From positions 1 to 42,880 of the forward strand of contig RDXZ01000024.1 in NCBI GenBank assembly GCA_004293265.1: a DNA stretch of 42,880 bases, written 5' to 3'. The notes under the pieces were generated by a model that worked only from the letters and a program-made list of their open reading frames with translations, had not been told where the DNA came from and did no database searches. Positions 5,130 through 38,904 of this stretch are shown piece by piece; within the stretch, counting starts at the first letter, position 1; each line of letters begins with the position of its first letter. Source of the DNA: Bacteroidota bacterium. GTDB taxonomy: Bacteria; Bacteroidota; Bacteroidia; Cytophagales; Microscillaceae. The position numbers were made by a program, and so were the translations under genes.

Positions 5130-5840
5130 ATGAAAACTTCCTCACATATTGCGACAGATTTACGCAATACATCTTTATTTCAACATATTTTAGCAGTTCA
5201 AAAAGGAGAACGAAAATTTGAAAACGTATTTCAAAGCGTTTCCAGAATGATTTTAGGTGATAACCAAAAAATCAAAAAAGTAAGCGTAAATGGATTAAAT
5301 ACCTATGATTTTTTAGTTTTTAGAGAAGGAAAAAAACATTTAATTGGTATGTATGACGAAATTAATAGTTTTGTTAGCTACGTCAAAGATGCTGCCGAAG
5401 GTGGCTCATCTGCCGAAATGGCTTTTGTTTTGATTGGAGAGCCGGGCAACGGAAAAACTTATTTTGTTGATTTTTTAAATAAATTATACAGAGATTTTTG
5501 CTCGATGCCCGAAAACAAACGTTATACATTCAAATTTAAAAATTTAGAAAAATTAGGCGGATATGGAAAAATTTATGAAATAGAATCTCAAACTTTTGAA
5601 GACCCTTTTATTTTGGGAATGAATTTATTTGAAACAAAAAATCAAAGTTTTGAATATTATAGGTTGTATCTTTTGATAAAGCCTCTTTCAAAGCCAAAAA
5701 ACGAATGTTTTGATGTTGAATATTGTTTGCTTTTATTTCGTTTGTATTTTCATTATTTTTATATCTCAACAACAACAATAATAAATTTTGTGGCAATATT
5801 CCAAACAAAGTTTCTTCAATATTTCCTGCGTTTTTATTGA
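5130..5840 (+). pseudogene. prkA: truncated PrkA-family serine protein kinase (N-terminal AAA region only); PrkA-like up to about nt 5630
   Basis: ERKFENVFQSVSRMILG..., AEMAFVLIGEPGNGKTYFVDFL (Walker A), RYTFKFKNLEKLGGYGKIYEIESQTFEDPFILGMNLFE resemble PrkA; residues beyond ~5630 lie antisense to the C-terminus of the convergent 1783-aa gene. Confidence 0.7.
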
Positions 5841-8800
5841 CAAAAATTTGTTTTTCTATCATCAAAGTATTTCCTTTGGTAAAAGATTTTGCGTTTTTGG
5901 TGTTGATAAACAATTGATAAGGAATTTCATTTTCATAAATAAAAATTTGATATTCAGTTTCAGATTTCCATTTTTCATAATATTGTTCTGCCCACTCATA
6001 CGATTTTGACAAAAGTAATTCATTATCCAAATTTTCTTCTATATTCAAAGATTGTGCATAACAAATTTTAATATCTAATTGAGTGAGTTGAATATTATTT
6101 TCTTTCAAAAACAACAACAAATTTTCCAAAGAAAATTGATATTTTTCTTTAAATTGTTTGATTTTATTATCATCAAGAAAAGAAAAATTAGCAGTTTCAA
6201 AACTATCAAAACCATATACCCATTTTCCTTCTTTGTCAATTTTTGTGATAAAAGGCAGAGCAATTTTTGGATTTGTGTCTGCTGAATTTAGTTCTAATAA
6301 ATTATAAAATTTACGAATCCAATTCAATCTTTCATCGCCTTGTGTGATTTCTAAACCACTCATTTTCAACCATTTAGCCGTTTTTTGAACAAATAAATTA
6401 TCATTAGTTAAGGCATCTTTGAGTTGTTTCAAAGTGATTTCATTTTGTCCATCAAAGAAATATTGTCTGATTTTTACGCCATCGCTTTCGTGTGTATGCA
6501 CGCCCAAAGCACGCAAAAAGTGATTTTTTAGTTTTTTTTCATCTTCTTTTGTCGAATTATTTTGCCATTCTTGTAACCAAGTAGGCATTTCCTCTTGTGG
6601 CAATGCCAAGTCATTGATTTCGATGGTTTGTGCAGGCACAAAGCCAATTATTTTCTCAGAATTTTCATCTTCCAAAACAATATTTTCAGGTTGTTTTTCT
6701 ATCCATTTTTCGAATAAATACTCCATACAAAGCATCTGTAAAGAAGAATTTTGAACGATAGTTTCAGAAAAAGGAGAAGATTTAAAAATATTTTTATCTA
6801 AAAATGGTTCTTTTCTAATTTCACCTTGCCCAAACTCAAACGCATTTCTTTTTTCTTCGTTCAAACGCAATAAATTCAAAATATTCGAATATTTTGTATC
6901 CAAAATAACTTCTTTTGACACAAAATCAGGTGCCTGCCAATACCAAATTTTATTATCAAAATTTTGTTTTCCTGCTTGCGTATATGCGTAAAAATTTTCG
7001 AGTTCGATAGCATAAAAACGGCTATATAAGACCAGAAAAGCCATTTGATTGTCATTTTCTATCGTTTGATAATCATTTTTTAATAATTCAAAAATTTCTT
7101 TTTTATCTTTTTCACCTAAAAATCCACTCAATTTTTTATGTAAATTTTGCGGTTCGATATCGATAAATTGTTGTGAAATTCGTTCTAAAATTTCAAAATA
7201 ATTTTGATATTCGGGCAATATTTTTGTCAATTCTAATTCATATTTTCCTATTTTTTCAAAAGAAAAATTGATATGGTTTTGATACAAAAACTCACTCAAA
7301 AAATAAGTTTTTCCCTGTGCATCTTCGACTTGAATTTTTGGCAAAATATTTTTTAAATCTGCTTCTTTTTGTTTAAAAAGTGAAATAGTTTGATATTCTA
7401 CGCTATTTTTATCATACAAAACGCCTTCTCTGATGATAATTTCATCGATTTTACTCAAAGTTTCACCCAACAACAACGGATTAGTTGTTTCTGATAAAAT
7501 TTCAGCCAACACTTCTGTTGGAACATTTTTAAGCAATTCTTGTGATAAAATATTTTCTCCAATCAAGCCTTTATTTTCATAACTTTGTGTGAATAATCTC
7601 TCAGGTAAAATTTTGTATTTTTTTGAGAAATATTCTGCAATAATATCGTGAATTTTTTGTTTATTTTTTCCTGCATAAGCCTGTGAAAAACTACCTTTTT
7701 TTGTCAAAATATATTCTTTTTCATTGCTTGATTGCTCAAAAAAGAAATGATTATAGATATATTCTTGCGAAATTTCTCCTAAATGAATTAAGTTTTGAGC
7801 TTCATCTTCTTGCAAAACAATATTATCATTTTTCCAAGATTTTATCCAAAAATTATGTTCAATTTTAAATGGATTTTCTGTTAAAATTTCATATATATTT
7901 TTATCAGGCATTTTCAAATTTGTGCCTTTTAAAATCGCTTTTTGTAACGCATTATAACCTCGAACTTGTAACGCAAAATGATTGAAAAAGATTTGGTTCG
8001 CATTTTCAAAACCTTCTTGTTTGTTAATAAATATCGTTTTTTTATTCAAAAGTGGTTTATTATTCTTATTTTGTGCAAATAATTCTTTCACTTCCAAATA
8101 AAATTCTGAAATATTTTCTTTTTTGATAATTTGTGGTTGCATCACAATCAAATCCCAAAAAGGAAAAATAATATTGGCATAAATATCTTCTTTGCGACAC
8201 AAATAAGGTTTCAAATCATCATTGCTTTCTTCGGGTTTGATTTTAAAAACTTTCAACCATTCAGGAACTTCCAAATCAATAGGCAACAAATTTTTAGGCA
8301 ATTGTTTTTCTTTAGATTGATTTTCAAAAAGTGGCACTTTTTCTGTAAAAGTTGTGTTACCAATTTGTCTAAAAAACTTAAAAACGATATTTTTTTCTGC
8401 AGGAGAAAGTATAATTTTGTCTATTTCCAAAGATTTTGTAAAAACTTCTATTTTTGGAACGCTCATATTTTGTAATTTAAAAGGTTCTTCGTTCAAAAAT
8501 TTCAAAAAATCTTTTTCAGGCAAATACAAATTTGTGAGTTTAAATATTGCCGTTTTCAAATCTGCATAATTTTCAACATTCGAAAACCTCAAATCATAAA
8601 AAATCTGAGTGCTATTTACCAATTTTTTAATTCCATTTTCTTCTGTGAGCATAAACTTTTTATCATTCAAAGTTTTGCCTTTTTTAAGTTTAAAATAACT
8701 CAAAACACTTTCGATAAATGGTAAATAATTATCTATAATTGATTGATTATCAACGATTTTTTCAAAATTTGGATAAATAATATTGGTATAAATATCTTCT

Positions 8801-10959
8801 TTTTTCAAACAAAATTCAGTTAGATTTTCTTCAAAACAACTTGGTTTGATTCTATATTTTTCCAAATAAAATTCTACTTCTGCATCAGGCAAAAGTAAAT
8901 TTTTCAGCGGCATTATTTCATTATTTTGGTTTTCAAATAACGGAATTTCTTTCAATTGTTCTTTTGTAATTTCTTTCAAAGTCTGAAAAAAAGCAAAAAA
9001 AGTACTTAATTTTTCAATCGAATCTGTATATTGTAATATTTTTGAAGTGATTTTTTGAAATAAAACTTTATTATCAAACAAATAATCCAAACGTCCTTTG
9101 AGTGCATTTTGAATTTCTTTAAACTCTGAAATATTAATTTCTAACACCAAAAAACCCAATAATTTGAGTTCATTTTTCAACATTTTTGTTTTTTCATTGA
9201 CCAAAAAAACATCAGTTTGATTTTTTAACTCTTCCAAAGAGAAAAATGTGGTTTTTCCTTGCATATCCACGCAACGAAAAACTTTTAAATGCACAAATTT
9301 ATTCAAAAACTCTCTATCAAAATCGACTAATTTTAGTTCCTCGATAAAAATTTCGTAATGCTTAGCACTCAAATTTTTGAACCATTCGTGAATCAAATTT
9401 TCATTTCCTTCTTTTAATAAAGTCTTTAAATTCCAAGATTGCAACCCTAATTTATCAGATTTAAGGGCTTCATTTTTAACAAAATCATCATCGTTTTCAG
9501 TCCAAAAAAACCATTCTTTTGCCACTCCAAAATTCATTGGTTCAATAGGCAAAGCCGTTTTTTTAATAATGACTAATTCTTTGTTGTATGTATTTTGTTT
9601 GGTAGTAGGTATATTATTTTGAATATAATTTAACAAAGGTTGGTATAAATATTTTAATAACAATTGACTATTATACTTATCAGGCTTATCCGATAATAAA
9701 ATCGCTTTATATAAGTTTGTAAATTCTAAAAAAGCATTACTTTTATTTTTATTTAATATATTTTCCAATCCATCGGTCAAATATTGTAATGTTGCAAAAT
9801 TGGCTTCGCCTTGGTCATCAAGATGAGTGCGGTCTGTAACTTTATTGAACGAAGTAGCGTGAATAAAAAATGCGGAGTTGTGCCTTTCGTTTCGCATCGG
9901 AAAATATTGATACAAACTTGGTGCTTGTTTCATTCTCAAAATTCCTTTTTCAGTTGTTTCATATCCAATTGTGATTTCAATGGGACAAAAAGGAAATTCG
10001 GGGCTGATTTTTTTAAACTCTTGCGTTTCTGTATCAATCACAAACTCTTGTTTTTGAATTGGAAAACGCTCAATTACTTCATCAATTAAAACGACTTTTT
10101 TGAGTGTTTTTAATAAATTGAGTGAATAACCTATTCCTGATTTGAGGTTTTCGAGGGAATCTTTGAGTTTTTCATATTTTTTTTCACCAAATTTTAAAAA
10201 AATCAAACTGCCTCTTTCTACGTTTAGATTGCTTAATAGTTGGGCGTGTTTTTGAACAAATTTTGCTAATTCATTGATTTCTTTTTTTTCAAAAACGGCT
10301 TTTTCTTTGTAGTCCAAATCTTTTATTTTTTCGTCAGGAGCGATAGGAAAACAAGATAAAATTATTTTCATTAACCAAGCCCCTTTGCTTTTATCAGAAA
10401 TATCAGGGGTAAATTCAAAAGATTTGTTTTCGTTCCAATTTAAAATATCATCAAAATGTTGTTTTTCGTTCCAAGAAAATAAAATAGGACCTGCCAAATC
10501 ATTCAATAATTCGTCTGCTCCGTCAAATTTTCCAACCAATCGATGGACTAATTTGAAACCAATGCCATAACGTCCGATTTTTCCACAATTTTCGGCTTTG
10601 GTTTTATCTGCTTTTGTACCTTGAAACGAATTGAGAACGGCTTTGATGTCATTTTCAGAAAAAGGTTTTCCATTATTGAGAACCAAAAAATAATTTTCAT
10701 CATACAAAATAGCACAATCAGTTGCCTGACTATCAGCGGCGTTTTGCAAAAATTCATAAATAGCCTGTGCATCTTGTGAATTTTGAAGTTTTGGGGTAAG
10801 GTCAGCTTTTATATTATTGATAATGCCATTGACCATTTTATAAAAGCCACCTATTTCTCCATAATTTGCACCGATAAAATTTTCGTCCCAATTAGGCATA
10901 TCATAGCCTTGTTCTTTCTTCCATGCTTGGCGGAAGTTTGCAGTATTTTTTAACAACAT
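5608..10959 (-). CDS. giant protein with N-terminal sacsin/HSP90-type (GHKL) ATPase domain and internal repeats
   Basis: EFLQNAADSQATDCAIL (N-box), LVLNNGKPFSENDI, GKIGRYGIGFKLVHRLV (G boxes); 1783-aa ORF. Confidence 0.85.
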   Translation of the reverse strand: MLLKNTANFRQAWKKEQGYDMPNWDENFIGANYGEIGGFYKMVNGIINNIKADLTPKLQNSQDAQAIYEFLQNAADSQATDCAILYDENYFLVLNNGKPFSENDIKAVLNSFQGTKADKTKAENCGKIGRYGIGFKLVHRLVGKFDGADELLNDLAGPILFSWNEKQHFDDILNWNENKSFEFTPDISDKSKGAWLMKIILSCFPIAPDEKIKDLDYKEKAVFEKKEINELAKFVQKHAQLLSNLNVERGSLIFLKFGEKKYEKLKDSLENLKSGIGYSLNLLKTLKKVVLIDEVIERFPIQKQEFVIDTETQEFKKISPEFPFCPIEITIGYETTEKGILRMKQAPSLYQYFPMRNERHNSAFFIHATSFNKVTDRTHLDDQGEANFATLQYLTDGLENILNKNKSNAFLEFTNLYKAILLSDKPDKYNSQLLLKYLYQPLLNYIQNNIPTTKQNTYNKELVIIKKTALPIEPMNFGVAKEWFFWTENDDDFVKNEALKSDKLGLQSWNLKTLLKEGNENLIHEWFKNLSAKHYEIFIEELKLVDFDREFLNKFVHLKVFRCVDMQGKTTFFSLEELKNQTDVFLVNEKTKMLKNELKLLGFLVLEINISEFKEIQNALKGRLDYLFDNKVLFQKITSKILQYTDSIEKLSTFFAFFQTLKEITKEQLKEIPLFENQNNEIMPLKNLLLPDAEVEFYLEKYRIKPSCFEENLTEFCLKKEDIYTNIIYPNFEKIVDNQSIIDNYLPFIESVLSYFKLKKGKTLNDKKFMLTEENGIKKLVNSTQIFYDLRFSNVENYADLKTAIFKLTNLYLPEKDFLKFLNEEPFKLQNMSVPKIEVFTKSLEIDKIILSPAEKNIVFKFFRQIGNTTFTEKVPLFENQSKEKQLPKNLLPIDLEVPEWLKVFKIKPEESNDDLKPYLCRKEDIYANIIFPFWDLIVMQPQIIKKENISEFYLEVKELFAQNKNNKPLLNKKTIFINKQEGFENANQIFFNHFALQVRGYNALQKAILKGTNLKMPDKNIYEILTENPFKIEHNFWIKSWKNDNIVLQEDEAQNLIHLGEISQEYIYNHFFFEQSSNEKEYILTKKGSFSQAYAGKNKQKIHDIIAEYFSKKYKILPERLFTQSYENKGLIGENILSQELLKNVPTEVLAEILSETTNPLLLGETLSKIDEIIIREGVLYDKNSVEYQTISLFKQKEADLKNILPKIQVEDAQGKTYFLSEFLYQNHINFSFEKIGKYELELTKILPEYQNYFEILERISQQFIDIEPQNLHKKLSGFLGEKDKKEIFELLKNDYQTIENDNQMAFLVLYSRFYAIELENFYAYTQAGKQNFDNKIWYWQAPDFVSKEVILDTKYSNILNLLRLNEEKRNAFEFGQGEIRKEPFLDKNIFKSSPFSETIVQNSSLQMLCMEYLFEKWIEKQPENIVLEDENSEKIIGFVPAQTIEINDLALPQEEMPTWLQEWQNNSTKEDEKKLKNHFLRALGVHTHESDGVKIRQYFFDGQNEITLKQLKDALTNDNLFVQKTAKWLKMSGLEITQGDERLNWIRKFYNLLELNSADTNPKIALPFITKIDKEGKWVYGFDSFETANFSFLDDNKIKQFKEKYQFSLENLLLFLKENNIQLTQLDIKICYAQSLNIEENLDNELLLSKSYEWAEQYYEKWKSETEYQIFIYENEIPYQLFINTKNAKSFTKGNTLMIEKQIFVNKNAGNIEETLFGILPQNLLLLLLRYKNNENTNEIKANNIQHQNIRFLALKEALSKDTTYNIQNFDFLFQINSFPK

Positions 10960-17193: not shown

Positions 17194-17224
17194 TTGTTTT
17201 TCGACATTAAAATAAATAAATTTG
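17194..17224 (+). promoter_or_regulatory. Bacteroidota promoter TTG-N20-TAAATTTG
   Basis: ttg 17194-17196, taaatttg 17217-17224, upstream of the 17257 start. Confidence 0.55.
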
Positions 17225-17256
17225 CGCTAAGTTCTAAAAGTAAAAGAATAAAAATT

Positions 17257-18000
17257 ATGCATTCAGTACCTTTATTGTTTTTCGAGAGCATCAGAAAAAA
17301 AAGAATTATCAAAGATAAAGATAATTTAGAAACTCTTTTTAATGAATTGAGAGATAAAATAGATTTTTTCTTATCTAAAAAAGATATTTTACTAAATGAT
17401 TTTTGTACCAAAAATTTAGATTTTATTTTTAAATTGAGAGTGCAAGTTTTGGAATGGCTTGTTTTGAATGGTATTGATTTTGATGAAAAAGAATTTACAA
17501 ATACTCTTTCAAACACAAATAACGATAATTCAAGCCATAAAATATTAAAAGAAAATATTTTTTTTGCTATAAGAGTATCAAGTAAAATATTTAAAAATAT
17601 TGATGAAAGTAGTTTTTATTTTCCAAGATTTGATACTGAAATTAAAAATTTATCTTATTCGAGTGTTTTGTTTGCCTTTGATATGAATGTTATGGATAAG
17701 ACTATTTTGAATAATATAAAAGGTTTTTTTAATTCTTCATTATCATTGGAATTGGGAATGATTATGGGCTATTTTGTAATGAATAATCAATTTAGCAATA
17801 TAACTATTGACAAATCAAACGAATTAGCCAGATTTATTGCAAATAACTCACATAATTTTAGTGCGTTTGCAAAAATGTTAAATCCGTCTAAAAAACTCGA
17901 AAAAATAAATGACGTAGTTGCAGCGACAAAAGAACATCAAGAATTGGCAGAATTAGGCATAAACGACTATGCACAAAACTTAATAAAATATGACTTATAA
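17257..18000 (+). CDS. uncharacterised 248-aa protein, candidate large antitoxin for the downstream MazF-like toxin
   Basis: Start MHSVPLLFFES preferred because it lies downstream of the promoter; 11-bp overlap with the toxin ORF. Confidence 0.7.
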   Translation: MHSVPLLFFESIRKKRIIKDKDNLETLFNELRDKIDFFLSKKDILLNDFCTKNLDFIFKLRVQVLEWLVLNGIDFDEKEFTNTLSNTNNDNSSHKILKENIFFAIRVSSKIFKNIDESSFYFPRFDTEIKNLSYSSVLFAFDMNVMDKTILNNIKGFFNSSLSLELGMIMGYFVMNNQFSNITIDKSNELARFIANNSHNFSAFAKMLNPSKKLEKINDVVAATKEHQELAELGINDYAQNLIKYDL

Positions 18001-18337
18001 ACGTGGTGATGTCGTAAAAATAAATCTTGGAGATGTTAGCGAAGTAAAAGGACACGAACAAGCTATGGTAAGACCTTGTTTGATTATTAAATACTTGGAA
18101 CATCATAATTTGGCAGTTATAATACCATTTTCTACCAATCAAAATTATAACCTTTCTTATTGTAGTGTTGAAATAGAAATACGACAAGGAAACGGTTTAT
18201 CATCAATAAGTTATGCTTTGTGTCATCAAATAAGGACCGTATCAGCCGAGAGAATAATGCAAAAAAAAGGCGAATTAAATCAACTTGAAATAGAAAAAAT
18301 AACAAGCGTATTACTTGATTTTTTGGATACAGAATAA
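17990..18337 (+). CDS. PemK/MazF-family endoribonuclease toxin
   Basis: YKRGDVVKINLGDVSEVKGHEQAMVRPCLIIK...AVIIPFST...SYALCHQIRTVSAERI. Confidence 0.87.
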   Translation: MTYKRGDVVKINLGDVSEVKGHEQAMVRPCLIIKYLEHHNLAVIIPFSTNQNYNLSYCSVEIEIRQGNGLSSISYALCHQIRTVSAERIMQKKGELNQLEIEKITSVLLDFLDTE

Positions 18338-22146: not shown

Positions 22147-22188
22147 TATTTTACTGCAAATTTATTTATTTTTTTTGAAAATAAATAA
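22147..22188. repeat. 42-bp direct repeat, copy 1 (3' of HNH gene)
   Basis: tattttactgcaaatttatttattttttttgaaaataaataa, identical to 24405-24446. Confidence 0.92.
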
Positions 22189-22201
22189 ATTTATTCACTT
22201 T

Positions 22202-23305
22202 TTATTTGCCTGATTTACGTCTATTATCTTCTTTACACAACATTTGGCAATTGTCCGAGTTAGTTTTTCCTCCTGAGTGCCAAGGCGTTATATGGTCTGC
22301 TTCCATTTCTTCTATTTTAAAATTTTCTTTGCAGATAGAACAAACTCCTTTTTGCCTTTCATAAGATTCTCTTTTTTGATTATCACTAAATGCACGTATA
22401 TTTAGATGTTTTTCTTTTCTACTCAAAACGTAGGCATAAATTCCTTTTTTATTTGTTACGTCCTCGTCTTGCATTAGTTTTGTTACTTCGTCTTCTAACT
22501 TTTTTGGGTTAAATTTTCCACTTTTAAACTCGTTATAAAGAAATCCCCACTCTACCCCTTTCATTTCTTTACGATATTTCATGAAAGTTTCTTTTGTCCA
22601 TTTTATCACACTTTGAAAATAAAGCCAAAGTTCGTTAGCATTGGGTTCGTGTTGATGTGTTGCCATGTAGTCTTCAAGTTCGCCTCCTGAAATCCAATCA
22701 ATAACAGTTTCTAAATATTCTTGTCTGATTGCCGAACCATTAAGATAATCGCTGCCAATTTTAGAAGCGACACATCCATTTTTACTAAAATAACGTTTAG
22801 CATCGGAAACCCATTTACCTGTATAAACTGCGTTTCGTAATTCTTGTTCAGTAAGTTTTTCTCCTGCAATGTTGATGGTCTTGAACCATTCTAATTTTTC
22901 GCTTTCTGTTCCACTACACACATAAACCATTAATTTATAGTTTAAAATCTTTTCTTTTTCATCTTTTTTTAGGTTATGAAAATATCGATTTTGATAAGCG
23001 AAAACACCATCTACATATTGGCAAATCGAGATAGTTCTTTGTTGCCCATCTATTACTTCAAAAGTAATATCAATAAGTTCATACTTTCCATTTTCACGTA
23101 ATGCCCAATACATCACATTCAAAGGGAAGTTTTTGAAAATGGTATTAATAACTGCCTCTCGTTGTTTATCCTTGTATATAAATTCTCTTTGATAAGGTGG
23201 TCTAATATCCAATTTACCTCCATACCCAACAACACCATTTTCGGCATTATCTTCATAACCATTTGTAAGTTCTTTTATGGTAATTTCTTTCAGTTCTATA
23301 TTCAT
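22202..23305 (-). CDS. DUF262 (ParB/GmrS-like) domain + C-terminal HNH endonuclease
   Basis: PPYQREFIYKDKQREAVINTIFKNFPLN, VIDGQQRT; C-term CSICKENF...EADHITPWHSGGKTNSDNCQMLCKEDNRRK. Confidence 0.9.
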   Translation of the reverse strand: MNIELKEITIKELTNGYEDNAENGVVGYGGKLDIRPPYQREFIYKDKQREAVINTIFKNFPLNVMYWALRENGKYELIDITFEVIDGQQRTISICQYVDGVFAYQNRYFHNLKKDEKEKILNYKLMVYVCSGTESEKLEWFKTINIAGEKLTEQELRNAVYTGKWVSDAKRYFSKNGCVASKIGSDYLNGSAIRQEYLETVIDWISGGELEDYMATHQHEPNANELWLYFQSVIKWTKETFMKYRKEMKGVEWGFLYNEFKSGKFNPKKLEDEVTKLMQDEDVTNKKGIYAYVLSRKEKHLNIRAFSDNQKRESYERQKGVCSICKENFKIEEMEADHITPWHSGGKTNSDNCQMLCKEDNRRKSGK

Positions 23306-24396
23306 AAGGTTTTATTTTTTACGATTATTCTTGCGTAAATACTTGTATATAATTGTCCTGTTTCTGCATCTTTGAAGGCAGGTTTTTCGTCCTTTTTAGG
23401 ATTATATAGTTTGTATAATGTACCCTTTGCGTTATAGGTAAATTTTCCACTTGGCTTTCCATTTTTATCAAGAATTTCCATTTTTCGATTAGAAGTAAAA
23501 TCAATCGAGCCAATTATTCCAAGCGCTAATATTTCAAACTGTTCAGGATTGTATTTATCTAAAAAAGTGATAGGAACTCCTATCAAACCTTTATAATCTG
23601 ATGGTATTTCGCTAGTTTTATCTACATTGATAGCATCATAATTTTGATAAGTTGGGAATTCTTCAGGTGTATATTGTTTAAAAAGCATCAACTCTTCGTG
23701 TCGTTTTTTAATATCAAGATTAGTAAACCAATGCACTCCCGAAACTCTAATCATTCCTTCTTTATGATTGCCAGCAGTTGCATAGTCTTCATATTGCGTA
23801 TTTATAAAATGACTTGCACCTCCAGTAAACCCAAAACCTAACCAAAGTTTATCTTCTTTGATGAGTTTAAAAATTTCTTTGTAGGTAATAGCATTTTGGT
23901 GTCCGACAATTAGAAACTTTTTATCATATTGTATCAGTTGTGTTACATACTCGCGAAAAAGAGAAAATGGTGGATTTGTTACCACAATATCTGCTTGTTT
24001 CAAAAGTTCGATACATTCTGGCTTGCGAAAATCACCATCACTTTGCAAATTTTTTATGTGAGTTTTTGCATAATTGGGTACATTTTCAATCATTTCTCCA
24101 TTGTATTCTATAGAAACTGCCTTCTCTTCGAGATGCTGACTAAATAAATCAGGATTTGTATTTTTATAACAAGTAGCAATCAGTTTTTTCAACCCTAAAA
24201 ACTCAAAATTGTAAGCAAAATAATGAAAAAAATTGCTAACACGCGGGTCATCACAATTACAATATATTACTTTATCTTTAAAGTGTCGTCTGTAATGTTT
24301 TAACTCTTTTTCTATGTCAGTGAGTTGTGTATAAAACTCATCTTTTTTGCCTATTTTGGCTTTGTGTAGATTATTATTTTTTGATGTTGTTTCCAT
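23302..24396 (-). CDS. EcoRI-family adenine-specific DNA methyltransferase
   Basis: LHKAKIGKKDEFYTQLTDIEKELKHYRRHFKDKVIYCNCDDPRVSNFFHYFAYNFEFLGLKKLIATCY closely resembles the M.EcoRI N-terminus; catalytic NPPF. Confidence 0.93.
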   Translation of the reverse strand: METTSKNNNLHKAKIGKKDEFYTQLTDIEKELKHYRRHFKDKVIYCNCDDPRVSNFFHYFAYNFEFLGLKKLIATCYKNTNPDLFSQHLEEKAVSIEYNGEMIENVPNYAKTHIKNLQSDGDFRKPECIELLKQADIVVTNPPFSLFREYVTQLIQYDKKFLIVGHQNAITYKEIFKLIKEDKLWLGFGFTGGASHFINTQYEDYATAGNHKEGMIRVSGVHWFTNLDIKKRHEELMLFKQYTPEEFPTYQNYDAINVDKTSEIPSDYKGLIGVPITFLDKYNPEQFEILALGIIGSIDFTSNRKMEILDKNGKPSGKFTYNAKGTLYKLYNPKKDEKPAFKDAETGQLYTSIYARIIVKNKTL

Positions 24397-24404
24397 TTGC
24401 TTTT

Positions 24405-24446
24405 TATTTTACTGCAAATTTATTTATTTTTTTTGAAAATAAATAA
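24405..24446. repeat. 42-bp direct repeat, copy 2 (promoter side of methylase)
   Basis: Identical to 22147-22188; on the minus strand contains TAAATTTGC (TAnnTTTG -7 box). Confidence 0.92.
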
Positions 24447-32075: not shown

Positions 32076-35000
32076 TTATTCCACAACAATTTTCCTCACT
32101 ACACGCATATTATTTTGAATAATATGAACAAAATAGATACCTTTTGGTAATGATTTGATGTTTATACTCGTTGAATTGCTTGTTTCATTATTTTTTATCA
32201 AACTATTGCCTTGTAATGTAAAGATTTCATACACAAAACCTTCTTTTGATGTTTTGATATTGATATTTTCATTGCTTGGATTAGGATAAACATTGACAAT
32301 ATTTTCACTTCCTTTGATAAAAATTATATTTGAATAACTAAATTCTCCATTAAAATCAATTTGTTTGAGGCGATAATAAGCATCATCACTATTTTGAGCG
32401 TTCAATTGATAGTTTTTGATGTTATTAGAATTGCCCGCACCGTCCACAAAAGCAATTTTAGTAAAGTTTTGTGCATTTTTACTTGTTTCTATTTCAAAAC
32501 CTTTGTTATTTATCTCTGTGGCAGTTTTCCAAGTGAGCAACACATTATTTTCATCTCTCCTCTCTCCTCTAAACTCTAAAAGAGTAATCGGTAATGGCGA
32601 ACTTCCACTACTGGAAATGACAAACTCGCTGAACCCATCGATGCCTGTGAACTGCACTATGCCTGTGCTGGCATTGGCACTGCTTCCATTGATAACGCTA
32701 CTCCACGCACCGCCTGAGTTCGAAGAGCGTTTGTTGAGTTTCAGGTTTGAGGGTGTAGTGGCATCTCCTGCGCTTACCTGCCCCGCACCCAGCACGAAAG
32801 TAGCCGTAACGTTCAAGCCTGTGTTAGTTCCACCATAGTTGTTGATAACCCAATAATATTTGGTATGCACGCTGTTTGCGCCACTTACCTGCGTGCCTGC
32901 AGGCAAGCCTTCCAAACGCGAAGCAACAACATTGCCCCCGTTGCTATTGCCAAAGTTCAGCGTAATGCCTGTGCCTGTGAAGGAATAGTCTGTTCCTGCG
33001 GTGGGTGTGCCTATTGTGAAACTCACTCCTTTGCTCACATTCGCACCCGAACCTACACGGATAGGCGTGTTTTGGAAGGTGGCAGGTTTATTGCCTACCC
33101 AATCGTTGGCAAAAGTAGCGTTGTTATCATTGAATTGGTAATAATTCGCCAAGCCTGTAGCCCCTGTAGGCAAGGTAAGGTGCATATTTTGGCGAATTTC
33201 GTCTGCTGTACGGGCTATACTCCAAAAACGTACTTCGTCTATCTCGCCTGCCCAATATTCATTCCCTATTCTAAAATAATCGGTGGGTGGATACGCACCT
33301 AAGTGAAAACTGGCTACGGTTTTACCATTCACATAAACACTCATGGTATTGGCTACATCAATGGTATGAGCTACGTGTACCCACGTTCCTAACGGCATCA
33401 AAACGCCTATATCCACGATATTTATTCCTTCATGCCAAACAATTAACTTGCCTACATGGTCTATGAACAATCCATAACCTCCCGTCAGAGGATTGCCATG
33501 ATAAAATATCAAGGCACGTTGTCCTGTAGGGGGCAAGGCATTTTGTTTTATCCAAGCCTCTGTCGTAACATTGATTGGCACACTCGAAAGCACGCTACTT
33601 GTGATAGCATATTGATTGATGCCATTCAGTTTCAGGGCATTGCCTCTGCGTTCGGTGGGCGAGGCATTGTCGTATATCACAATGGTGAAAGGATAGCTTT
33701 GCTCACAGCCTCCTGCCACATTGCGGAGCGTCAGCACAAAGTCAAACGTGCCAAGCGTGGTATTGGTAGGCAAGCCTACTGTGATAGGCGAACCCGCAAG
33801 TGGCGCATTGTTCACTGCCACGAAGTTAGGCAAGTTCGAGCTGAGGCTGTAATGCGTAGCTGTACCACTCGTGAGCGTATAAGGCACTTGGAACAAAGCA
33901 CTGCCTACCAACACATTGAGCGTGTTGTTCACTGTAGCCACCATAGAGGTAGTAGTCCATTGCGCATAGAGCGTTACATTCTCGGCAGGCAAGACGAGCA
34001 TACTGCCCACTGCATAGCTCGTGCCTGTGCCATTGGCTTTGGTGTTCCAGCCTACCAAGCAGTAGCCAGCCCTCGTAAGCGTGCCTGCACCCAATACAGT
34101 AGCCGAAGCCCCTTCGATGTATCGCGTGTTGTCGGTAGGCAAGTTCCCGCCTGTGCGGTCAGGAGCTAAGTACGCGATGCCATACTGATAGCGATAACGC
34201 AGGTAAGGATAGCCATCATTTTTAGCAGGGTCTATGCCCCACACATTCGTAAAATCCCACCCTGCACTCGTAAAGGTGGAGGCAGTTTTCATCTCGGCCT
34301 CCGTCTTGGGCGTGGACGAGGTTGATGTAAGCGTACCGATGTTCTGATGGAAATTTGCGTTGAAATTAACATTATAAATGTTACCCGCAATGGAATTCAT
34401 GTAAGGATTATGTTCAGGAGTAACTGTGTAATTTCGCTCAATATATCCATTCGAAGCCGCATCTATTAATCCACCACCTATATAGTCAAAGGTCACATCT
34501 GTATTAGCGACACCATTGAACACGGATACTCGTGCAAAGCAATCTTGTATTGATGCTAGTGAGCTCGTTCCAACCATTCCTCCTACGCCACCTAGGCCTG
34601 TTGATAGTATATGGATAGGGCTTCCTTTTGCATAACACCTCGTAAAACCACCCTCATAATGTCCTACTAACTTTCCTACCGCTTCTGTATCAACTTGGAC
34701 TTTTCCGCCTTCTACATAGCACTCTGTTATATTTGATAGACCTCCCACTCCATACCCTATTAGCCCTCCAACACCGGATTGCCCCAGAACTCCTGCTACG
34801 TCAATCTCTACCCCCACGCGGTTGATGGTAGCAGGTGCTTGTATAAATCCAAACAATCCAATGTTTTCTTCATAATGTCGGTTTATTTTCAAGCCCTTTA
34901 TCTTCTTGTAATTCCCATCAAACCCTCCTACAAATCGATTGCCATAAGCTCCAATGGGCAACCAAAAAGCTCCGCCATTGTACCCATACCCATTCGGCGC

Positions 35001-36959
35001 AAGGAAAGCCGTAAGGTCAATGTCAGCAATGAGTTTGTAGTGGGCACTCATGTTGGTACGTACATGATGCAGTTGTTCGGCATTGCTTATCAGGTAAGGG
35101 TTGGCAGGGGTGCCATCTCCACCTTCATTTACGCGCACCCATTCAGGATAGAGTACAAGATTTTGCGTAGGCATGGGGAGCGTATTGTAGTAGCGCGTGC
35201 CTGAGCCATCAGGGGCTGTATTCCAATGATAACTCAAATAACCCGGTTTGCTCAGACTCGCCATGGGGAATGGAAAAGTTACAGGGATACCTGTAAAATA
35301 AACTGTACTATCTACCGGAGGCATTCCACTCGTACTGCCCGTTCCCATGTAGGTAACTGTTAGTGCGGGAATCCACTGCACATAAAGCGTAACATCAGAG
35401 GCAGGCAAGACTAAACTGCTCCCAAATTCATAGCTCGTACCGCTTCCATCGGGTTGTGTATTCCACCTGCCTGGCGCAAACCCTGTTTTGAATATAACGC
35501 CATAGGCATTTTGCACAGGCGCGCTCTGCCCCGGTAAATAGCGGGTGGGCTGTGTAGGAGGCGTACCGCTTGTGTGTCCGTTGCCGTTGTAGATGATGGT
35601 GTAGGTGGGCAACCAGTCCGCATAGAATGTAATGGTAGTAATATCCGCAGGGTTGAACGAAAGAACAGCACCCCCATAATATAATGTACCCGAACCATTG
35701 GCTTGTGTATTCCAGCCTGTTTGAATGAAATTGGTGCGGGCAAGTGTGCCCCCTCCTGCAAGCGTCATCGCGATATAAGGATATACATGGTATTTGTCTG
35801 GAGGTAAGCCACTTGTATTGCCATTGCCCAAATATACAATGGTAAGCGTTTCATCTGCCAAAAAAGGGCGTGAATTGTTGTAGGAGCTATGCCTGAGCCA
35901 AATGGTATCAAAATTCCAAAAATCTGTTGTTTGCAGTTCGGTTAGGGTAATCGGCACACCACTTGCGGAGAAGTTAATGCCTGAAGTAGTAGCATCCCAA
36001 TACGCATCAGTAGCGGACACTGTAGCACCCAAATCCCAACCTATCAGCCCGCCTTTGAAAGGATTTGCGGAGGCACTGTTGGTCATGGGGCAACTGGCAT
36101 AGACTTTATTGAGCGTAACATTGGAATTGGTCGTACCAATGATACCTCCCAACTTATCAGGCGAGGCAGCTGAAAGTTCGCTACGCAGGCTTCCCGCAAA
36201 GTAACAATCCTGAATAGTGGTAGTGGTAGCCTGTCCCACAATACCACCCAAAGAAGACTCTTGGTAAGATTTGTAAGAATTATCGTCTGTGAGCAACATT
36301 GTGCTGGAACAATGCCTGATGATGGTCTGGTTTGCTGAACCTACGATGCCCCCGCCTCTTGCACCTGGTGCAATGACTGTGCCTCGACTATGGCATCTTG
36401 TAATTTTGCCTATCGATACACCCGCGATACCTCCCACACTTCCGAAAGATCCTGTTGCACTAAGAGTCTTCACTGTTCCGCGAACTCGGCAATCTATTAC
36501 CTCGCTATCCGTGAGTATGACTCCATTTGCAGTACCAAGATTACCTACTATGATTCCTACCTGATGATATCCCCATACAATACCCGCAACCTCCACAGTA
36601 AGTCTTTTGATAGTGCCTGCAAGCCCACGAAATAAGCCCACATTATTTTCTGCCCGTTCTATTTTTAGGTTGTAAATCCTATAATTATTACCATCAAATG
36701 TGCCTTGTAGGTCGATAGGATTCCAAAACTGTCCTCCATTATAGCCTGCCCCGCTTGGAGCAAGGTAGGAAGCCAAATTAATATCGTTCATCAATTTGAA
36801 ATGATGATTATTTGCGCTTACAGTGGCGATATTCGCCAACTGCTGGGGCGTGCTTATCAGGTACGGGTTGGCTGCTGTGCCATCGCCCCCTGCAAACTGC
36901 GCTTGTGCCTTGCCTACCCAAATGCATAGCACGAAAAAGAATAAGATAATTTTTTTCAT
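32076..36959 (-). CDS. large secreted adhesin-like protein: GLUG-like segments, four Listeria-Bacteroides (List-Bact) repeats, LamG-like domain, T9SS sorting domain
   Basis: Signal MKKIILFFFVLCIWVGKAQAQ; GGDGTAANPYLIS/GGDGTPANPYLIS modules; YNGNGHTSGTPP..WNTQPDGSGTSYEFGSSL.LPASDVTLYVQW repeats; NAALKLNG-type LamG (GNALKLNGINQYAITS...GEIDEVRFWSIART); C-term VNVYPNPSNENINIK...GIYFVHI. Confidence 0.9.
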   Translation of the reverse strand: MKKIILFFFVLCIWVGKAQAQFAGGDGTAANPYLISTPQQLANIATVSANNHHFKLMNDINLASYLAPSGAGYNGGQFWNPIDLQGTFDGNNYRIYNLKIERAENNVGLFRGLAGTIKRLTVEVAGIVWGYHQVGIIVGNLGTANGVILTDSEVIDCRVRGTVKTLSATGSFGSVGGIAGVSIGKITRCHSRGTVIAPGARGGGIVGSANQTIIRHCSSTMLLTDDNSYKSYQESSLGGIVGQATTTTIQDCYFAGSLRSELSAASPDKLGGIIGTTNSNVTLNKVYASCPMTNSASANPFKGGLIGWDLGATVSATDAYWDATTSGINFSASGVPITLTELQTTDFWNFDTIWLRHSSYNNSRPFLADETLTIVYLGNGNTSGLPPDKYHVYPYIAMTLAGGGTLARTNFIQTGWNTQANGSGTLYYGGAVLSFNPADITTITFYADWLPTYTIIYNGNGHTSGTPPTQPTRYLPGQSAPVQNAYGVIFKTGFAPGRWNTQPDGSGTSYEFGSSLVLPASDVTLYVQWIPALTVTYMGTGSTSGMPPVDSTVYFTGIPVTFPFPMASLSKPGYLSYHWNTAPDGSGTRYYNTLPMPTQNLVLYPEWVRVNEGGDGTPANPYLISNAEQLHHVRTNMSAHYKLIADIDLTAFLAPNGYGYNGGAFWLPIGAYGNRFVGGFDGNYKKIKGLKINRHYEENIGLFGFIQAPATINRVGVEIDVAGVLGQSGVGGLIGYGVGGLSNITECYVEGGKVQVDTEAVGKLVGHYEGGFTRCYAKGSPIHILSTGLGGVGGMVGTSSLASIQDCFARVSVFNGVANTDVTFDYIGGGLIDAASNGYIERNYTVTPEHNPYMNSIAGNIYNVNFNANFHQNIGTLTSTSSTPKTEAEMKTASTFTSAGWDFTNVWGIDPAKNDGYPYLRYRYQYGIAYLAPDRTGGNLPTDNTRYIEGASATVLGAGTLTRAGYCLVGWNTKANGTGTSYAVGSMLVLPAENVTLYAQWTTTSMVATVNNTLNVLVGSALFQVPYTLTSGTATHYSLSSNLPNFVAVNNAPLAGSPITVGLPTNTTLGTFDFVLTLRNVAGGCEQSYPFTIVIYDNASPTERRGNALKLNGINQYAITSSVLSSVPINVTTEAWIKQNALPPTGQRALIFYHGNPLTGGYGLFIDHVGKLIVWHEGINIVDIGVLMPLGTWVHVAHTIDVANTMSVYVNGKTVASFHLGAYPPTDYFRIGNEYWAGEIDEVRFWSIARTADEIRQNMHLTLPTGATGLANYYQFNDNNATFANDWVGNKPATFQNTPIRVGSGANVSKGVSFTIGTPTAGTDYSFTGTGITLNFGNSNGGNVVASRLEGLPAGTQVSGANSVHTKYYWVINNYGGTNTGLNVTATFVLGAGQVSAGDATTPSNLKLNKRSSNSGGAWSSVINGSSANASTGIVQFTGIDGFSEFVISSSGSSPLPITLLEFRGERRDENNVLLTWKTATEINNKGFEIETSKNAQNFTKIAFVDGAGNSNNIKNYQLNAQNSDDAYYRLKQIDFNGEFSYSNIIFIKGSENIVNVYPNPSNENINIKTSKEGFVYEIFTLQGNSLIKNNETSNSTSINIKSLPKGIYFVHIIQNNMRVVRKIVVE

Positions 36960-37028
36960 ACGTTTTGAATTTTATTTTAATTTTGTTGCAAAACAAGCAA
37001 AAACCACCCAAAACACCAAAAAAATGGC

Positions 37029-37046
37029 GTGGACAAAGTGTGGACA
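37029..37046. promoter_or_regulatory. direct heptamer repeat gtggaca x2, 11-bp period
   Basis: gtggacaaagtgtggaca, ~70-90 nt upstream of the 1627-aa gene start. Confidence 0.35.
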
Positions 37047-37058
37047 GTGAGAAAATAG

Positions 37059-37135
37059 TTTCCTCAATAGGTTTGAAGCCTATCCTATTGAGGAAAGAAA
37101 AATAACCCGCTGTGGTTTGTGGGGACACAAACCTC
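37059..37135. promoter_or_regulatory. two adjacent hairpins in the gap between the regulator and adhesin genes
   Basis: tttcctcaatagg/cctattgaggaaa (13-bp perfect stem, 37059-37096) and ggtttgtg-ggga-cacaaacc (about 37114-37133). Confidence 0.65.
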
Positions 37136-37170
37136 GGTAGGTAAACTTTCATCTCTCAACAAATCAGTTC

Positions 37171-38904
37171 TCAATTATCTTCGCGTTTTAGTTTTTTGTT
37201 TAGGCGCATTTTTGCCTTGCGCACACTTTCGGGAGCAATACTCAGGAGAGTGGCTATCTCTTTGGTGGACATATTCAGATGCAGATAAGCAGAAAGGCGC
37301 AAGTCGTAGGGCGTGAGTTCGGGGCATTGCGTCAATAAGTCTTGAAAAAAAGTAGGGTGTACTTGCTCGAAATGTAGTTTGAACCTGTCCCAGTCTGCCT
37401 CCAACTGAAAATTATTTTGGATAGTAACTTTGATTTCTCTGATGGCTTCGGTGTGTTGCGTATCGCTTTGTTGCGAGAGGCGTTCTATTTGTTTTTTTAG
37501 CCCCAATAGCATCTCATTTTTTTGGTATAAGTAGAGCGTGTTCGAACTAAGTTCGCGTTGATTGGCTTCGAGTTTGGCTTGTAGTTCTTCTTTTTGGTTT
37601 TTCTCAAGGGCTATTTCAGCCAAGATATATTCGTTTTCGAGTGCTATGAACTTATTGCGCGATACCATTTGTTCGTTTTCGGTCTGGAGCGTTTGCGCCT
37701 CCATTTGCTTTTGCTTTAGTTCTTCTTTCAGCATATTGATACGCGCCACCAACGCCACCGCAAACGCGAGGGCTTGCGAAACAATCGCCATACTTGGCAA
37801 CAGTCTTGCGCCCTTGCCATAAAACGTAAACACCGCAAAATATACCGCCAACGACAAAATGAGCAACAACGGAACGGTATTGGCTATCAAGAAATAACGC
37901 GCCAAACTATGATTGACGCGGTAGGCAAGCACCGCCACGCCAAGCAACAAAAGCACGATAAGAACTATCAAAATATTGCTTATCAATGCCACTTCTACGT
38001 CCCAATACACCACACCGCTCAACATCCCTAAGATAGCCACCCCCATAAAACCTACAAAAATCAATCCCGCATAGCGCAAGGCTTTGTCCCAAGTAGGCAA
38101 GTAATAAGGCGTTTGCAAGTAGGAGCGTGTAAACTGCACAAAGCCCCATAGCACACCCAAAATGCCCAAATCCATGACAAGATTGTTTGCATTGTACCAA
38201 TACAAACGCCCATTCGTCAGGTACTCAAAGCGTATCCACGTCCATTGTAGCCCCAAATTGGCGATATGATTTAGCCCTGTGATGTAGAGCAAACCACTCC
38301 CCACAATGACCAAATAAAACAAATAGGTGTGGTCGCGAAAAATGAAATAGACATAAAAATTATAGACAAAAAAGGCGAGCATAGTCGCGCAAGTAGCCCA
38401 CCACATAGTCCAAATGAAGTTTTCGCTTGCCTCAAAGGGTTTGGCTTTGTACCAATACACATCGAGAACAGGCGCGAGTGGCTGTTTTTGTAAAAGTGCT
38501 ACGCTCATTTTCACATACAAGGTATCTTGCCTACCGCGCAAAAAGGTATAAGGCACATAATTTGGCACACGAAACTTGTAGGGCGCAAGCAATCCCGTTT
38601 TTTGCGATTCGTATTGTTGGGTATGTGGATTTTTGATGTGCCATTCTTGGTAGAGCATAGGTTGCATAGAGAGATAGGCAGGCAAGTCGCCTATCGAGTC
38701 AAGACTTGCCACTATGCGCACCCAATAAAAAGGCGTTTTGGTGTGGTTTTCAAGCGTTTTGGCTTCTTTGAAAGGTAAATTCCCTTGTCTTACTTGCTGA
38801 AGACTATACTGCGCATCAGGCAAAACTTCCCACACGATTTTTTGGGCGAAGAGGTTTGAAGAAAAAGTAAATAATACAAGAAACAGTGTAGTTTTAAAAG
38901 GCAT
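37171..38904 (-). CDS. 7TM-DISM membrane sensor with coiled coil and C-terminal LuxR-like HTH
   Basis: Signal peptide, extracellular domain, seven hydrophobic segments (IWTMWWATCATMLAFFVYNFYVYFIF...), coiled coil, LTPYDLRLSAYLHLNMSTKEIATLLSIAPESVRKAKMRLNKKL. Confidence 0.88.
   Translation of the reverse strand: MPFKTTLFLVLFTFSSNLFAQKIVWEVLPDAQYSLQQVRQGNLPFKEAKTLENHTKTPFYWVRIVASLDSIGDLPAYLSMQPMLYQEWHIKNPHTQQYESQKTGLLAPYKFRVPNYVPYTFLRGRQDTLYVKMSVALLQKQPLAPVLDVYWYKAKPFEASENFIWTMWWATCATMLAFFVYNFYVYFIFRDHTYLFYLVIVGSGLLYITGLNHIANLGLQWTWIRFEYLTNGRLYWYNANNLVMDLGILGVLWGFVQFTRSYLQTPYYLPTWDKALRYAGLIFVGFMGVAILGMLSGVVYWDVEVALISNILIVLIVLLLLGVAVLAYRVNHSLARYFLIANTVPLLLILSLAVYFAVFTFYGKGARLLPSMAIVSQALAFAVALVARINMLKEELKQKQMEAQTLQTENEQMVSRNKFIALENEYILAEIALEKNQKEELQAKLEANQRELSSNTLYLYQKNEMLLGLKKQIERLSQQSDTQHTEAIREIKVTIQNNFQLEADWDRFKLHFEQVHPTFFQDLLTQCPELTPYDLRLSAYLHLNMSTKEIATLLSIAPESVRKAKMRLNKKLKREDN

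Follow-up and report, generated by a model that had tools for sequence, protein, structure and literature searches.

The closest described relatives of the locus analysed here belong to several classes of restriction system. In the EcoRI system, the gene for the nuclease R.EcoRI (PF02963) precedes that for the methyltransferase, which carries GAATTC-specific segments. GmrSD and BrxU, Type IV enzymes built of DUF262 and DUF1524, cut DNA with modified cytosines (PMC12707154; PMC10952713), and the SspE effector is licensed by phosphorothioate marks and harmless without them (PMC13251355). In LlaJI, a Type IV-type effector has been recruited into a methylase-protected system (PMC12707154). According to a 2026 review, ON/OFF phase variation is frequent among Type III restriction–modification (R-M) systems and of limited occurrence among those of Type II, and Type I specificity changes by hsdS recombination (PMC13076061). 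The gene pair described below joins an EcoRI-family methylase (M) to a DUF262-HNH nuclease (R), and PADLOC already catalogues it as a putative Type II system (R as REase_II, M as MTase_II). A literature search, with subscription journals, preprints and REBASE outside its scope, returned no paper on the pairing of M with DUF262-HNH or on repeats in EcoRI-family methylases.

The pair spans positions 22202-24396 on the minus strand of the window (the whole stretch of DNA that was analysed, 42,880 nucleotides), with M upstream and R downstream. An earlier note on this DNA had set outer limits of 22147 and 24446, which enclose both open reading frames and are slightly too wide; its account of an ATGA coupling to a DUF262 plus HNH partner was borne out, as the frames overlap at 23302-23305 and R matches both PF03235 and PF01844. 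The features of the pair are:

23302..24396, minus strand: M, EcoRI-family adenine-specific DNA methyltransferase, 364 aa (open reading frame; PF13651, 433 bits; PADLOC MTase_II)
22202..23305, minus strand: R, DUF262 (ParB/Srx-like) plus HNH nuclease, 367 aa (PF03235, PF01844; PADLOC REase_II)
23302..23305, minus strand: ATGA stop/start overlap of 4 nt coupling R to M (list of open reading frames; recurs in many homologous loci)
23737..23838, minus strand: TRD1, first hypervariable swappable segment of M, aa ~187-220 (mean pairwise identity 0.22-0.27)
23347..23526, minus strand: C-term, second hypervariable swappable segment of M, aa ~291-350 (identity mostly 0.12-0.2)
23036..23050, minus strand: DGQQR nucleotide-binding motif of DUF262, R aa 86-90 (invariant in 65 sequences)
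22205..22342, minus strand: HNH domain, R aa 322-367 (PF01844; D337, H338, N352, N361)

Ordinary chromosomal and housekeeping genes flank the pair, with no Ssp genes in this neighbourhood that would indicate linkage to sspABCD. The source genome (4.03 Mb) encodes a single EcoRI_methylase. An EcoRI-like nuclease elsewhere, which the earlier note had said would speak against its reading, was searched for across these 4.03 Mb and not found; the same search does detect PF02963 on an EcoRI plasmid, which served as a positive control. About 16 DUF262 proteins are encoded in this genome, four of them clustered on one contig (C124:44638-51114). Elsewhere in the window, a PemK/MazF-type toxin gene (17990-18337) overlaps an upstream open reading frame that has no Pfam match (region 17194-18337), and the two possibly form a toxin–antitoxin pair ~3.9 kb from the M-R system. 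Positions 5608-10959 encode a 1783-aa protein with a Sacsin/HATPase-like domain at its N-terminus and no assignment for the rest. At 32076-38904 the GC content rises from ~30% to 42-48% across the gene for a large secreted protein, with Laminin_G_3, Listeria-Bacteroides repeats and Por_Secre_tail, and the next gene.

M matches the EcoRI_methylase model PF13651 over its full length (E 8e-130), and its NPPF motif (aa 141-144) is invariant in 62 sequences. Variability was profiled as mean pairwise identity in 85 complete M-R pairs, where the core around both hypervariable segments of M keeps an identity of 0.55-0.96. Against M.EcoRI, the window M is 59-69% identical in two core blocks, 26% in TRD1 and 3% in C-term. 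The likeness to M.EcoRI that the earlier note had placed in the N-terminus is thus real, but extends through the whole core and leaves two unrelated segments. These are the very segments that EcoRI-coupled methylases conserve, so the family name does not carry GAATTC with it: because TRD1 and C-term are only 26% and 3% identical to those of M.EcoRI, methylation of GAATTC by the window M is unlikely on sequence grounds, and this specificity was dropped as a prediction. Searches of solved structures with the M sequence gave no credible match, and the M model no convincing match in the PDB.

R matches PF03235 (GmrSD_N/DUF262, E 2e-18), PF01844 at its C-terminus (HNH, E 1e-11) and, over its full length, the PADLOC REase_II model (E 5e-137). 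DUF1524 (PF07510) was not matched in R, where a PF01844 HNH stands in its place. In the HNH region, D337, H338, N352, N361 and K364 are invariant in 65 sequences. Across the 85 complete pairs, R shows a single short variable loop and nothing like the hypervariable segments of M. The AF2 model of R has a pLDDT of 89; its best PDB neighbours, all weak, are BrxU, a Geobacter HNH nickase, nucleotide-bound ParB (ParB-CDP) and SspE, and searches of solved structures with the R sequence returned HNH matches only. The window R carries an insertion of ~7 residues (KYELIDIT) just before DGQQR (window 23053-23083, R aa ~74-80), which looks like a tandem copy of FEVID and is absent from all 147 other aligned R sequences.

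The earlier note had seen in the locus a restriction system with a substituted effector and had called for a survey of how often the pairing recurs. In the loci fetched by homology to R, M lies on the same strand in 157 of 160, and a contig end truncates each of the remaining three: 78 of 80 loci on cellular contigs (two such cuts) and 79 of 80 on viral contigs (one). This recurrence excludes a chance pairing. Cellular loci come from Bacteroidota, Actinomycetota, Acidobacteriales, Rickettsiales, Campylobacterales, Firmicutes, Patescibacteria and archaea, and plasmids and isolated phages are further carriers. The idea of a substituted effector is therefore supported, but as a family across phyla, archaea, plasmids and phages; a one-off substitution of the EcoRI nuclease is ruled out by the survey. 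Within the phylum Bacteroidota, the methylase occurs in 20 of 396 genomes, with R directly downstream in most intact loci. It was found in none of 14 other genomes sampled from the same order, which fits horizontal acquisition by the source genome. M-R fusions, sought as evidence of a complex, were not found.

Some loci depart from the plain arrangement. Bro-N or Fic genes separate M and R in several and look like unrelated insertions, and in an Enterococcus dispar plasmid (L158) the resistance gene optrA lies between the two. In some mycobacteriophages (L042, Marchy, Norz), all that remains of R behind an EcoRI-family methylase is its first 43-58 codons; here the nuclease is lost and the methylase kept. 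At one locus (L141, G271:C145) an intact R stands beside what is left of M, its last ~100 aa, the remnant lying behind an unrelated gene; the genome concerned encodes three more R genes.

The relation between the two partners is clearest where R is nearly constant. Clustering of segments from 148 systems at 60% identity gave 42 TRD1 and 94 C-term clusters, and each segment reassorts regardless of the other and of R. Among R pairs at 94-99% identity, TRD1 is 11-26% identical and C-term, in most, 6-18%. One pair of loci (L065/L066) has R 98% identical with TRD1 at 13% and C-term at 10%, and two further pairs (L065/L067, L052/L058) likewise combine R at 94-99% with unrelated M segments. Single segments are also exchanged: TRD1 only in L074/L179 (R 99%, C-term 100%, TRD1 24% identical) and in L116/L117, where R is near-identical; in L076/L088 R is 90%, TRD1 94% and C-term 11% identical. 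Two copies within one genome (L004/L021) have R 97% identical and unrelated M specificity segments. In L052/L058, R remains 94% identical although the M core itself is only ~61-63% identical. The dN/dS of R in swap pairs is ~0.01-0.1 (dN 0.008 and dS 0.72 in L116/L117), which indicates that R is under purifying selection.

Systems of EcoRI type from E. coli, two Klebsiella, Leuconostoc and Rhodococcus, in which the same methylase family is partnered by the EcoRI endonuclease, provided an internal control. EcoRI-coupled methylases overall are 63-95% identical in TRD1 and 74-100% in C-term. Even where the nuclease has diverged to 61-66% identity, TRD1 (63-76%) and C-term (74-79%) are conserved like the core. 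This indicates that a nuclease with a fixed site obliges its methylase to retain both segments, a constraint from which the DUF262-HNH nuclease is free. Joint change of R and M specificities, the pattern of an orthodox Type II pair, is not what the sequence comparison gave: near-identical R stands beside unrelated M segments. The comparison suggests that R is indifferent to the sequence specificity of M, which is our main new result; what was already known is the PADLOC entry as Type II.

A single R may also stand beside several Ms. Variovorax plasmids and two viral contigs (L188, L234) have the order M-M-R with unrelated M segments. One locus (L142) reads M-M-R-M, its Ms having a common TRD1 and three different C-termini, each after a G8-G9 tract, and the third M is frameshifted.

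Slippage-prone repeats were scored in 102 loci; a tract was counted if it was a G/C homopolymer with a length of 8 or more, or a repeat of 2-6-mer units that covered 16 bp or more. Twelve tracts fall inside the methylase gene, in 10 of the 102 loci (104 kb), none in R (111 kb) and 8 in the flanks (376 kb); for repeat-bearing loci, the difference between M and R has a Fisher p of 0.0015. The window M is without such a repeat, so that this copy is fixed. The G22 tract that closes R in one locus (L201) was rejected as an artefact, since it sits at a contig end. In five Bacteroidota Ms, a G9 (open) or G10 (frameshifted) tract lies at the NWGG codons, immediately ahead of the C-terminal segment. 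In both L018 and L024, G10 puts M out of frame and R is open, and one genome holds both L024 and an open G9 copy (L009); G11 frameshifts M in L220. The M-off, R-open state of L018 and L024 would speak against the Type II rule that an active R does not tolerate the loss of M, provided that the assemblies are sound, that R is active and that no other methylase of these genomes steps in. Single homopolymer frameshifts may be errors, because many loci are metagenome assemblies. Error is unlikely as the general cause, given the recurrence at one codon position, the isolates among the three-frame cases described below and the absence of tracts from R. Within-species variation in repeat length was sought in A. 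kunkeei and E. faecium plasmids, which contain no repeats.

In four loci the repeat lies at the C-terminal segment: (GAGAA)12 in Riemerella columbina (L059), G10 in Fibrobacter intestinalis (L077), (AG)9 in L098 and (AAGC)n in L093. In all four, each of the three frames after the repeat stays open as far as a terminal strand of the Y-x-R-I-x-I-R type found in the family, so that slippage would exchange one C-terminal module for another. A motif count gave alternative-frame motifs for 4 of 4 three-frame loci and for 1 of 94 others (hypergeometric p ~1e-6). The three-frame regions are:

L059:4900-5300
L077:2440-2800
L098:2620-2980
L093:1-455

The first three of these loci, which belong to different phyla, have one similar cassette (IPG.IKNAEGKINGKITY) in common, and their repeats differ.

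We think it probable that M and R form a two-gene R-M system in which M sets the sequence at which methylation and restriction alike take place, and R, with no fixed recognition sequence of its own, cuts where M directs. The features behind this proposal are the obligate pairing, the invariant DGQQR, HNH and NPPF motifs, constant R beside swapped M segments, loci with several Ms, and repeats or frameshifts in M with intact R. M would be an adenine methyltransferase of the EcoRI family, Type II in style, whose two recognition segments can be exchanged, and R a DUF262 NTPase with an HNH nuclease that would cut only where M directs, at unmethylated M sites, which are the presumed target. R may dock on M or on the M-DNA complex, and NTP hydrolysis by DUF262 may gate or trigger the HNH nuclease. 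From the loci with M off and R intact and from the arrays of several Ms, we infer that R acts only in complex with M. The conservation of R at 94% beside an M core of ~61-63% (L052/L058) would place any docking surface in the most conserved core, or else R reads something else. This counts against the proposal, as do the M-R fusions sought in vain and the filing of R by PADLOC under ordinary Type II REases. Segment swaps, extra M genes or repeat slippage in M would then retarget both activities, or switch them off, together, leaving the host unharmed.

The main rival to direction by M is that R works like SspE: it would sense the m6A marks set by M on self DNA, be licensed by them through NTP hydrolysis and attack unmarked DNA, with neither contact to M nor a sequence of its own. 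SspE is a precedent for such a DUF262 nuclease and, like BrxU, a weak match of the R model; the rival explains the same facts as the M-directed model, including the indifference of R to M specificity, the multiple Ms and the M-off loci with intact R, and sequence alone cannot separate the two. R would, however, need to recognise m6A in many unrelated contexts (the 42 TRD1 and 94 C-term clusters), and it lacks DUF1524 and has no Ssp genes nearby, so that we rate licensing by methylation as unlikely. A nuclease that responds to lost methylation, the second suggestion of the earlier note, likewise stays a candidate among the rivals.

An orthodox Type II pair, in which R itself recognises and cuts the sequence of M and M simply protects, would suit the gene order and coupling typical of R-M, the Type II label that PADLOC models give to both partners, and an R that is always accompanied by M, with dedicated methyltransferase and endonuclease genes adjacent. 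That R stays 97-98% identical while both M specificity segments are replaced, as EcoRI-coupled Ms do not do, makes such a pair distinctly improbable, as do the service of one R to two or three Ms and the frameshifted M beside an intact R, expected to be lethal if R were autonomous. The earlier note had linked the architecture to modification-dependent cleavage of GmrSD type. R would in that case destroy foreign modified DNA, with M there for another reason, such as site masking or as an addiction partner; DUF262 is indeed the fold of GmrS. Type IV enzymes need no methylase, whereas R practically never occurs without this methylase family, its HNH is PF01844 and not DUF1524, and PADLOC models it as a Type II REase, so that this reading is disfavoured and now very improbable.

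Our best reading is a Type III-like logic assembled from other parts, in which a DUF262-HNH nuclease would be directed by an exchangeable and sometimes phase-variable methylase. PADLOC files the family as ordinary Type II, which implies a fixed-site nuclease; the comparison indicates that specificity is replaceable in the methylase alone. We see about an even chance that the family is a very widespread and distinct R-M class, in which EcoRI-family Ms with two independently swappable segments direct a specificity-free DUF262 NTPase-HNH nuclease and, in some lineages, slippage selects one of three alternative C-terminal modules from overlapping frames, methylation and restriction specificity switching together.

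With the EcoRI system, the family has in common the methylase family and its core. R.EcoRI is unrelated to the DUF262-HNH nuclease, the gene order is reversed to M then R, the M segments are free to change beside a constant R, and the GAATTC-specific segments are absent from the window M. To GmrSD and BrxU, R is alike in having DUF262 with DGQQR followed by a His-Me-finger nuclease, and differs in its PF01844-type HNH, its smaller size and its obligatory methylase partner. The likeness to SspABCD-SspE lies in the joining of a DUF262 NTPase to a nuclease, which acts alongside a self-marking system, but the marks in the M-R family are presumably m6A set by one methylase and not phosphorothioates. 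LlaJI is an earlier case of a Type IV-type effector at work beside protective methylation; its effector is a GTPase of McrBC type that reads DNA through a B3 domain of its own, and it uses two methylases for a fixed asymmetric site. As in Type III systems (Mod/Res, phase-variable mod included), the recognition region is variable and lies in the methylase, the nuclease is constant and repeats occur in the methylase gene; switching off may likewise be tolerated. The parts differ: Res combines an SF2 helicase with a PD-(D/E)XK nuclease, whereas R is DUF262 plus HNH in 367 aa with no helicase, and the place of Mod is taken by an EcoRI-family enzyme.
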